From contig JACPSX010000288.1 in assembly GCA_016193065.1 (NCBI GenBank), positions 1-11,454 of the forward strand: DNA of 11,454 nucleotides, read 5' to 3'. The notes beneath the pieces were generated by a model that saw only the letters and a list, made by a program, of their open reading frames with translations, was not told the DNA's origin and searched no databases. This document shows, in pieces, positions 3,548 to 9,698 of this stretch. Source of the stretch: Candidatus Tectimicrobiota bacterium. GTDB taxonomy: Bacteria; JACPSX01. The position numbers and the translations under genes were made by a program. The stretch's first letter is position 1, and each line of letters begins with the position of its first letter.

Positions 3548-3554
3548 CTCCCCC
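3548..3554 (-). promoter_or_regulatory. Shine-Dalgarno sequence deciding the rpoC TTG start
   Basis: Read on the minus strand this is GGGGGAG, followed by 6 nt (TGAGAT) and then TTG. The TGA inside that spacer is in frame with rpoC and excludes any upstream start. The first G of the site is the last base of the inverted-repeat element that fills the rpoB-rpoC spacer, so the element ends exactly at the ribosome-binding site. Confidence 0.8.
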
Positions 3555-3780
3555 TAGTGCCGGTCCAATTAACTTCGCCTAACTTCGTATCACCCACAAG
3601 GTGGGTACCCGCCCTCGCTCTCCCTGCGGCGTACTCCCTTGGTACGCCTCAGTCGGCTCCGGGTACCCGCGGCTCTGCCGTGGGTGTGCGCCTGCACCCA
3701 TCTGCGATGGGTACCCGGCTCGTTCTTTGGCCCGGCACGCCGCGCGCTCTTTCAGGGCAAAATAGCTAGAACAGCACTGG
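3554..3780. mobile_element. MITE-like inverted-repeat element filling the rpoB-rpoC spacer
   Basis: A 227-bp non-coding block starts on the base after the rpoB stop codon and ends on the first base of the rpoC Shine-Dalgarno. Its two ends are an imperfect terminal inverted repeat: CTAGTGCCGGTCCAATTA at the plus-strand left end, and CCAGTGCTGTTCTAGCTA when the right end is read in reverse complement (12 of 18 identical; 15 of 18 paired in RNA if G-U is allowed). The left end closely matches the ends of the element at 9590-9698. Inside is a chain of GC-rich hairpins. I see no transposase or credible protein; a 75-codon minus-strand frame through it overlaps the rpoB end and looks spurious. The CTAG at one end and CTGG at the other could be a decayed target duplication (CTAG or TA), which is inference. 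It could instead be a hairpin-type regulatory or REP-like repeat. Confidence 0.6.
3592..3716. repeat. Hairpin cluster with three GGGTACCC palindromes inside the rpoB-rpoC element
   Basis: GGGTACCC occurs at 3603-3610, 3661-3668 and 3709-3716. Successive short-loop inverted repeats can be read: ACCCAC/GTGGGT with a 3-nt loop (3592-3606); GGCGTAC/GTACGCC with a 7-nt loop (3628-3648); ACCCGCGGC/GCCGTGGGT with a 3-nt loop and one internal mispair (3665-3685); and ACCCATC/GATGGGT with a 3-nt loop (3696-3712). The stems share an ACCC/GGGT base, as if one hairpin unit had been duplicated and had diverged. No U-run follows any stem on the transcribed strand, so these are not typical intrinsic terminators. 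Confidence 0.7.
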
Positions 3781-6700
3781 TTATTCTTCCTTATGACCAT
3801 TCTCAATGAGCTCCACGTCCAGCGCCAAGCTCTGCATCTCCTTGATCAACACATTGAAGGACTCGGGCAGGCTCGGCTCCAGGGTATTTTCCCCCTTCAC
3901 GATGGCCTCGTACATGCGGGTGCGGCCCTGCACGTCATCGGATTTTACGGTAAGCATCTCCTGCAGGGTGCGGGCGGCCCCGTAGGCTTCCAGAGCCCAA
4001 ACCTCCATCTCTCCCAGACGCTGGCCCCCGAACTGGGCCTTGCCGCCCAGGGGCTGCTGGGTCACCAGAGAATAGGGGCCTGTGGAGCGGGCGTGAATCT
4101 TGTCGTCGACCAGGTGGTGAAGCTTCATCATGTAGATCTGGCCCACCACCACCTTTTGATCGAAGGGGATCCCCGTCTTGCCGTCGTAGAGCACCGTTTC
4201 CCCGCTTTCGGGCAAACCGGCCCGCTGCAGGAGTTCACGGATCTGAAACTCTTTGGCGCCGTCGAAGACCGGGGTCGCATAATACTCCTCGAGCTTCCTG
4301 GCTGCCCACCCGAGACTGGTCTCCAGGATCTGGCCCACGTTCATACGGGAGGGGACCCCCAGGGGATTCAAGATGAGCTCGATGGGCATCCCATCCTCCA
4401 TGAAAGGCATGTCTTCCTCGGGAACGATGATGGAGACCACCCCCTTGTTGCCGTGGCGGCCCGCCATCTTATCCCCCACCGAAAGCTTGCGCTTCATGGC
4501 AATGTAGACCTTGACCATCTTGATGACCCCGGGAGGAAGCTCGTCCCCCTTGCGCAGTCTGGCGATCTTCTCCGCCATGAGGGTCTCCAGGGCGTGAATC
4601 TGATCCTTGGCCCCCTCTTCAACCTCCTGGACGCTGTCGCGAACCGACTCGGAGTCGATCAGGGAGGCGATGACACTCAGATCCTTGCCCCCGAACTTCT
4701 CCACCATGCTCAAGGTGATTTTCTTTTTCTTGGGGATCAGAACCTCCGAGTTCTTCTTGCGCTGGAAATCTTCACGGAGCGTGCGCCCTTCCAGGAGGTT
4801 GCGAATCCGTTTGTCGCGCTCCTCCTCCACGATGCGGATCTCGTCGTCGAAGTCCTTCTTGACGCGAGCGATCTCTTCCTCCTCGATGGATTGAGTCCGC
4901 AGGTCCTTGTCAACCCCCTTGCGGGAGAAAACTTTCACGTCGATCACGGTGCCCTCAATGCCGGGCGGCACCGTGAGGGAGGTGTCCTTCACGTCCCCTG
5001 CTTTGTCTCCGAAAATGGCCTTGAGGAGCTTCTCCTCGGGGCTGAGCTGGGTCTCCCCTTTGGGGGTCACCTTGCCCACCAGAATATCCCCCGGGCGAAC
5101 CTTGGCGCCCATGCGGATGATGCCGCTTTCATCCAGGTTCTTCAGGGCCTCCTCGCCCACGTTGGGAATATCCCGGGTGATCTCCTCTTTGCCCTGCTTG
5201 GTATCCCTGGCCTCAACCTCGAACTCCTCGATATGGATCGAAGTGAAGATGTCCTCCTTGACCACCTTCTCGCTGATGACAATGGCGTCTTCGTAGTTGT
5301 ATCCACCCCAGGGCATGAAGGCCACCAGGATGTTCCTGCCCAAAGCGAGCTCCCCTTTATCCGTTGCCGGACCGTCCGCAATCACATCCCCCGCTTCCAC
5401 CCAATTCCCCTCCCGGACGATGGGCTTCTGGTTGATGCTCGTGTTCTGGTTCGAGCGCTGGTACTTGGTCAGCGTGTAAATGTCGACCCGGGGTTCCGTG
5501 CCGGACCCGCTACCTCCCGAAGTGGCCCTGACCACAACCCGAGTGGCGTCCACGCTCACCACTTCTCCGGGTGCTTTGGCAAGCACAACCGCCCCCGAGT
5601 TGCAGGCCGTGATGTACTCCATCCCGGTTCCCACCAGGGGCGCCTCGGTGCGCAGCAAAGGCACGGCCTGCCGCTGCATGTTGGAACCCATGAGGGCCCG
5701 GTTGGCGTCGTCGTTCTCCAGGAACGGAATCAGGGAGGCGGCCACGCTCACCAGCTGCTTGGGGGAAACGTCCATGTAGTCCACCTTGTCCGGAGGAACC
5801 ATGACGAACTCCCCGCCCTTGCGGGCCGAGATCAAATCTTGGGCCAAATAGCCCTTCTCATCGAGCTCCGCGTTGGCCTGGGCAATAATGTATTTGTCCT
5901 CCTCGATGGCCGAGAGGAAATCCACTTCGTCGGTCACCTTGCCTTTTTGGACCTGGCGGTAGGGAACCTCGATGAAGCCAAACTCATTGACCCGGGCATA
6001 GGTGCTCAGGGAAGCAATGAGCCCGATGTTGGGGCCTTCCGGGGTCTCGATGGGACAGATGCGACCGTAGTGGGTTGGGTGCACATCCCGGACTTCAAAC
6101 CCCGCCCGCTCGCGGGTCAACCCCCCGGGTCCCAGAGCGCTCAGGCGGCGCTTGTGGGTGATTTCGGAGAGGGGATTCGTCTGGTCCATAAACTGGGAGA
6201 GCTGGCTGGAACCGAAGAACTCCTTGATGGCCGCCGAAACGGGCTTGGAGTTGATCAGATCATGGGGCATGGCTCCTTCCAGATCCTGGATGCTCATGCG
6301 CTCCCGGATGGCCCTCTCCATGCGAACCAACCCGATCCGGAACTGGTTTTCGAGAAGCTCTCCCACCGAGCGCACCCGGCGGTTGCCCAGATGGTCGATA
6401 TCGTCCACAAGTCCGATCCCATGCCGCAGACCCAGAAGGTATTTGACCACCGCCACCACGTCCTGCGCGGTGAGCTTCCTCTGGTCCAGGGGGAGGTCGA
6501 GCCCCAGCTTGGTGTTGAGCTTGAGGCGGCCAATCCGGGAGAGATCGTAACGCTTGGGATTGAAAAACAGGTTCTCGAACAGGTTCCTGGCCGTATCGAG
6601 GGTCGGAGGATCACCGGGTCGCAGGCGCTTGTAGATGTCGATCAAGGCTTCCTCGGGAGTCTCCACCCGGTCGACCGCCATGGTATCCCGCAGAGCCGTA

Positions 6701-9585: not shown

Positions 9586-9590
9586 CCTCC
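9586..9590 (-). promoter_or_regulatory. rplA Shine-Dalgarno sequence overlapping the repeat end
   Basis: GGAGG on the minus strand, 5 nt before the rplA ATG. Its first G is the final base of the CTAG that closes the inverted repeat. In mRNA the site therefore starts at the foot of a predicted 17-bp stem. Confidence 0.8.
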
Positions 9591-9698
9591 TAGTACCGTT
9601 CCAACTATTCCTAAGCCACGCTTCCGGTCCGCGTGGTCCATGTTTGTGCTGCCAGGCAGGTCGCTCCAATTGGGTGGATCAAGTTGGAACGGCACTAG
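9590..9698. mobile_element. MITE-like inverted-repeat element filling the rplK-rplA spacer
   Basis: This 109-bp element is bounded by 17-nt terminal inverted repeats (9590-9606 and 9682-9698) of the form CTAGT(A/G)CCGTTCCAACT, differing at one base. An internal hairpin CCACGC/GCGTGG (9616-9636) and a CTGCCAGGCAG palindrome (9649-9659) lie between them, and there is no coding potential. The ends begin and finish with CTAG, which may be a duplicated CTAG or TA target; that is inference, modelled on IS5-type (YTAR) or IS630/Tc1-type (TA) insertion. The same terminal repeat, more diverged, bounds the rpoB-rpoC element, which argues for a dispersed family. The rplK stop codon lies inside the right repeat. 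An alternative is a conserved RNA structure rather than a mobile element. Confidence 0.7.

Follow-up and report, generated by a model that had tools for sequence, protein, structure and literature searches.

A probable MITE-type family with CTAG target duplications, found in a ribosomal protein–RNA polymerase operon and in genomes from several bacterial phyla

The spacer between rplK and rplA holds a complete member of a family of short elements that are very probably of MITE type, with inverted ends around a core of ~100 bp, a 4-bp CTAG duplication, and presumed movement in trans. Three features that characterize prokaryotic MITEs as a class were found: the elements are short and non-coding with terminal inverted repeats (108 bp, with 17-nt arms), copies are dispersed at unrelated loci, and there is a target duplication with an empty site. 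The preliminary description had proposed a family of short non-autonomous elements, a claim borne out by many copies in the same genome and in others. Soil and groundwater bacteria from six or more phyla carry the same element ends.

Two elements in one operon

The window, meaning the whole 11,454-nt stretch of DNA analyzed here, is one entire contig (C263) of a 2.9-Mb metagenome-assembled genome (MAG; hereafter the own genome, G000) and carries tRNA-Trp, nusG, rplK, rplA, rplJ, rplL, rpoB, and rpoC on its minus strand. The element in the rplK–rplA gap spans positions 9590–9698, that is, 109 bp including both CTAG copies, with a core of 101 bp. Downstream of it lies rplA (ribosomal protein L1; 8873–9580, minus strand), assigned by tblastn against other genomes, and on its other side rplK (ribosomal protein L11; 9695–10120, minus strand), assigned from the open reading frame (ORF) list and tblastn, whose stop codon falls within a CTAG of the element. 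Arm complementarity and the logo of pooled ends delimit the left terminal inverted repeat TACCGTTCCAACT (9594–9606, plus strand) and the right one, TGCCGTTCCAACT (9682–9694, minus strand). Together with the flanking CTAGs these form arms of 17 nt each (9590–9606 and 9682–9698), complementary at 16 of 17 positions, in agreement with the near-perfect repeats originally described as bounding this spacer. The first copy of the target duplication (CTAG, 9590–9593), defined from the sequence and from comparison with empty sites, shares its first two bases with the rplA Shine-Dalgarno sequence AGGAGG (minus strand, 9586–9591), and the second copy (CTAG, 9695–9698) supplies the TAG stop codon of rplK at 9695–9697 on the minus strand. 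Allowing up to three mismatches, we detected three end-like sites in the window against 0.12 expected, a number reached in none of 200 shuffles.

Deleting the element and one CTAG in silico restores the junction GTC-TAG-GAGGTTAGG-ATG, in which the rplK TAG stop is overlapped by the Shine-Dalgarno sequence and the rplA ATG lies 12 nt past the stop. The same 12-nt spacing was found in five other genomes (loci L189, L191, L194, L198, and L208), and none of the rplK–rplA spacers of other bacteria compared contained the element. The preliminary description had proposed looking for empty sites in sister genomes; no near relative of the own genome was present among the genomes searched, and the comparison is with other bacteria. 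The rplK TAG stop would thus survive insertion, CTAG being duplicated.

The gap between rpoB and rpoC holds an element of a second family (3554–3780), 227 bp long here and about 190 bp elsewhere in alignments. Its first duplication copy, CTAG, lies at 3554–3557, and its second, now CTGG, at 3777–3780 (both from sequence and alignment). The left terminal repeat TGCCGGTCCAATT (3558–3570, plus strand) was recovered by end search, BLAST, and alignment. The right terminal repeat (3764–3776, minus strand) is decayed, less so in the own-genome copy on contig C123 and in copies in a Methylomirabilota MAG (G002), and an internal end-like sequence, TTGGCCCGGCA (3727–3737, minus strand), is kept across the second family in alignment. 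As first described, the left end including its flank (3554–3570, CTAGTGCCGGTCCAATT) is identical to the left arm of the rplK–rplA element at 14 of 17 positions and has a decayed copy on the right (3764–3780, AGCTAGAACAGCACTGG), which by eye matches the right arm at 13 of 17. The stop codon of rpoB (3781–3783) abuts the element on the side where the flank reads CTGG instead of CTAG.

The cores of the two window elements are unrelated, and the pattern of same ends with different cores had been put forward for both. It holds between genomes for the 108-bp family; the rpoB–rpoC element, however, is of another family, with a core that the own genome shares with the distant Methylomirabilota MAG. 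Nine copies of the second family from the own genome and G002 could be aligned end to end, with conserved interior blocks. The rpoC proteins of these two genomes are only 70% identical, and the similarity therefore spans distant hosts, between which the second family keeps its interior whereas the 108-bp family does not.

Copies, anatomy, and insertion sites

In the own genome, which holds some 20 copies besides the rplK–rplA element itself, we found 32 exact ends, many as inverted pairs 107–109 bp across, and 19 paired copies, mostly of that same length. BLAST with the rplK–rplA element returned 17 places, and BLAST with the rpoB–rpoC element 11 matches at ~8 places on seven contigs, the query being included in both cases. 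Further paired copies, anticipated in the preliminary description, were thus recovered: the exact paired pattern occurred 10 times in the own genome compared with 0 for the reversed control, while a single-end pattern at two mismatches was far less specific (60 matches versus 42 in the control). A paired-end scan of GTDB species genomes, requiring the first 16 end bases and allowing lengths of 104–132 bp, yielded at least 117 stretches, from records named Methylomirabilota, Acidobacteria, Gemmatimonadetes, Beta- and Gammaproteobacteria, Nitrospirae, and Omnitrophota. Among 192 broadly sampled genomes the paired pattern was present in the own genome alone, and the distribution is therefore patchy. 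Per strand, six chosen genomes had between 17 and about 125 ends; the bearers are MAGs, in which single contigs can be misbinned, and several have many copies over many contigs. Plasmids searched for the ends gave no real match, and viral contigs gave 22 single-end matches, near chance by our own estimate. A single paired 108-bp-family copy (L224, about 13187–13301) sits on a contig that IMG/VR assigns to viruses, which may be host DNA or prophage.

The 264 ends pooled from other genomes read CTAG-TRCCGTTCCAACT-N2-TT-N2-GCC-N-AA, with no conservation beyond; bases 1–16 of this consensus were imposed by the scan, and conservation from base 17 onward is independent of it. The main family would accordingly consist of a ~100-bp core in which inverted ends of the form TGCCGTTCCAACT-N2-TT-N2-GCCNAA enclose near-indifferent filler. 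It would insert at CTAG or at a site differing from it by one base, and the 4 bp duplicated there bring the total to the usual 108 bp. Length is held closely, with 107–109 bp measured in 124 of 161 elements and the commonest length in most of 31 genomes. Interiors, by comparison, exceeded the 99.9% shuffle threshold in 2% of pairs between genomes and in 40% within genomes. Own-genome pairs with interiors that were 76%, 63%, or 56% identical had ends 93%–94% identical, although these pairs were themselves collected via their ends. Constant ends with diverged interiors would fit long residence and selection for mobility.

Evidence of insertion came from G002, where elements are nested inside elements. 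Two inserts sit within one 281-bp composite (L283:8645–8925), the first 107 bp long with flanks CCAG/CCAG and the second 74 bp long with flanks TTAG/TTAG. When both are taken out, along with one copy of the flank in each case, the outer element is restored at exactly 108 bp and is identical to an uninterrupted paralogue (L058) at 102 of 108 positions. The lengths of other composites in this genome (177–178, 211, and 281 bp) are accounted for by the same nesting. Composites of ~281 bp recur on contigs C32, C49, C86, and C92, so that 108 bp is no absolute limit, and they seem to be themselves mobile or duplicated as units. Of 208 pairs over all loci collected, 152 had CTAG on both sides. Where a single base deviated at both ends, the deviation was identical in 10 of 15 elements (~7 independent events), and identical deviations occur at each of the four CTAG positions, in pairs including TTAG, CCAG, CTGG, and CTAA. 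No direct repeats were found outside the 4-bp CTAG. From the nested empty site, the matched deviations, and this absence of repeats beyond, the target duplication is 4 bp, usually CTAG. G002 also contains arrays of ends at 25-, 38-, or 57-bp spacing (L278:7656–7860 and L289:7154–7290), of which the 25-bp steps can arise from elements inserting at the conserved CNAA at positions 26–29 of another's end.

Most elements lie between genes. In 1.35 Mb of G002, 58 of 62 were located outside ORFs, and 13 of the 62 duplications overlapped a stop codon, an upper estimate because a TAG stop may also be a product of the insertion. The proportion at stop codons is similar for ordinary CTAG sites in this genome, of which 73 lie at stop codons and 356 in non-coding DNA. 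CTAG is scarce in coding DNA and common at stop codons, and tolerated insertions would gather just behind genes, also inside operons. The preliminary description had two elements landing in the most highly expressed and essential operon; two insertions there are, but a special preference for the ribosomal protein–RNA polymerase operon need not be invoked, as the elements, judged from sequence, appear to track non-coding CTAG sites. A nested composite follows rplA in the same operon of G002, with the rplA TAG within its CTAG, a reading based on two contig ends that both contain the composite. This composite, between rplA and rplJ (L274:9015–9155 and L356:1–211), marks a break in the assembly and lies where the L10 leader would be expected.

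The mobilizing enzyme and alternative readings

A transposase or recombinase acting in trans would have to recognize the ends and the 4-bp target. The preliminary description suggested a single transposase whose gene would have the same ends; no such gene was found for four transposase families in 24–31 genomes, nor did an autonomous copy turn up in the parts of the genomes that were covered. DDE_3/IS630, DDE_5/IS701, DUF772, and DDE_Tnp_1 were all absent from G002–G006, MAGs with incomplete assemblies and 17 to about 125 copies each; G002, a 2.9-Mb Methylomirabilota MAG, combines about 125 copies with none of the four. Among the 24–31 element-bearing genomes, the loci fetched for these families lacked the ends and gave only partial matches at chance level. 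DDE_5 was present in 6 of 31 genomes, never with these ends, and assignment to IS701 failed; likewise, none of the DUF772 or DDE_Tnp_1 loci fetched had the ends, and assignment to IS5 or IS1182 failed. In 1.64 Mb of the 2.9 Mb of G002 there was no credible pair of ends 0.7–3.5 kb apart, and pairs suggesting an autonomous copy were absent in G000, G003, and G005 among the matches listed. IS481 targets CTAG; a motif scan for rve (IS481 and others) in the same 1.64 Mb gave no convincing match. Genes recurring beside the elements at 117 loci belonged to common families only, with no transposase recognized. Several loci were considered as a parent insertion sequence (IS) and rejected: L081 and L342 have only poor partial ends, L380 is a yidC gene flanked by end-like sequences, and in L424 a pair of second-family elements in facing orientation encloses folate genes. 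Possible movers are a lost or unassembled IS, a transposase of another family, or a stand-alone recombinase.

The last of these, in a REPIN-like arrangement in which a single-copy recombinase not flanked by the ends moves the elements, refines the MITE reading and is compatible with it; we consider it a tentative option, with perhaps a modest chance of being correct. Up to about 125 copies per genome without a visible autonomous copy or any of the four searched transposase families speak for it, as do the diverged interiors and nearly constant ends in the own genome, which point to long residence. A RAYT (HUH tyrosine transposase) as the mover is disfavored by the 4-bp duplication and by ends that are not palindromes; a coarse HUH motif scan gave no match in 1.64 Mb of G002. 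More specific, and rather doubtful in our judgment, is the idea of an undescribed, conserved stand-alone recombinase shared by at least six phyla that moves length-locked (100-bp core), CTAG-duplicating elements by which it is not itself carried. If true, this would be a partnership of the REPIN kind that uses another chemistry.

Movement by an IS630/Tc1-mariner transposase, as for RUP and Correia elements, with TA duplicated within C-TA-G, was the model first favored, and we now consider it very unlikely. TA is present in CTAG, and the size matches RUP (107 bp) and the short Correia form (about 107 bp) (PMC3049150, PMC2229807). The sole DDE_3 (IS630-type) match of the own genome, in an element of ~1,030 bp (L159 on contig C24, 1072–2101), has ends that begin CTAGTGC. 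However, these ends (CTAGTGCACTGAC), although also on CTAG, diverge after CTAGTGC (GTGCACTGAC) and are otherwise unlike the element family. DDE_3 is also missing from 20 of 30 element-bearing genomes, G002–G006 among them. The model was given up on the TTAG, CTAA, and CCAG pairs: the outer C and G co-vary on both sides (TTAG/TTAG, CTAA/CTAA), giving a duplication of 4 bp and not 2.

That the spacers are instead a fixed regulatory RNA of the operon (an attenuator or processing hairpin) and not mobile DNA is highly improbable, and as a sole explanation it is ruled out by the nested insertion with its empty site: both elements do fold far more stably than shuffled sequence (rplK–rplA, z = −5.3; rpoB–rpoC, z = −4.0), as inverted repeats must, and the second-family core is kept between two distant genomes, but copies lie at many unrelated loci, the hairpin is missing between rplK and rplA in other bacteria, 108-bp-family interiors are near random between genomes, RNAalifold gave the second family a covariation gain of about zero with compensated changes in 2 of 42 pairs, and an Rfam scan of both element sites found no family above its gathering score, a tRNA being the sole above-threshold match. 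On the MITE-type reading, a secondary regulatory role is possible. In mRNA, the rplK–rplA element would fold into a long hairpin separating the messages of the two genes, with a possible effect on mRNA decay or translation, and both window elements may be RNA processing sites; RNase III processing has been proposed for Correia elements.

Comparison with known systems

The IS701 and IS5 families make 4-bp duplications at YTAR- or CTAG-like targets and so resemble the present family in how many bases are duplicated and in the type of target sequence; they differ in that no member with the same ends was found and their domains are absent from G002–G006. A search of the open literature turned up no account of these ends; matches to their 10-mers look like chance and fall in papers unrelated by title. 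We therefore report a MITE-type family for which no description was found there and which stands at a small distance in principle from known kinds. What sets it apart is one end sequence across phyla, a fixed length with free filler, and a missing enzyme. Copy-rich genomes without the usual transposases pose the problem of the identity of the moving enzyme. A CTAG target would explain how elements reside in a ribosomal protein–RNA polymerase operon with its genes unbroken, the stop codon serving as target and being duplicated.

Among described elements, RUP is about 107 bp long, has terminal inverted repeats and some 108–110 intergenic copies, and is assumed to move in trans (PMC3049150, PMC2229807). 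The likeness extends to size, inverted repeats, high copy number, intergenic sites, and presumed movement in trans. RUP, however, has been described in pneumococcus, inserts at TA, and has IS630-Spn1 as its partner, whereas here the duplication is 4 bp, the ends occur across phyla, and no partner was found. Correia/NEMIS elements of Neisseria include a ~107-bp form beside a longer one and lie next to genes as transcribed hairpins (PMC2229807); they differ in having other ends, TA termini, a single host genus, and similar interiors between copies. REPINs are inverted doublets amplified within genomes without a transposon of the same ends, by REPIN/RAYT logic (PMC3116915), but REPs are palindromes and RAYTs HUH enzymes, unlike the non-palindromic ends and 4-bp duplication here. 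The Chunjie MITE of Geobacter uraniireducens likewise has conserved ends and a variable interior, with one copy in an operon (PMC10969869); at 178–235 bp and in one species it is distinct, a separation made by description and not by end sequences. Bacterial MITEs have mostly been described one species at a time, while here a single set of ends reaches across MAGs of uncultured bacteria from six phyla or more. The elements keep to a total of 108 ± 1 bp with a near-free filler, RUP and the short Correia form are close in length, and this shared size makes the question of why small MITEs measure ~105 bp a testable one.
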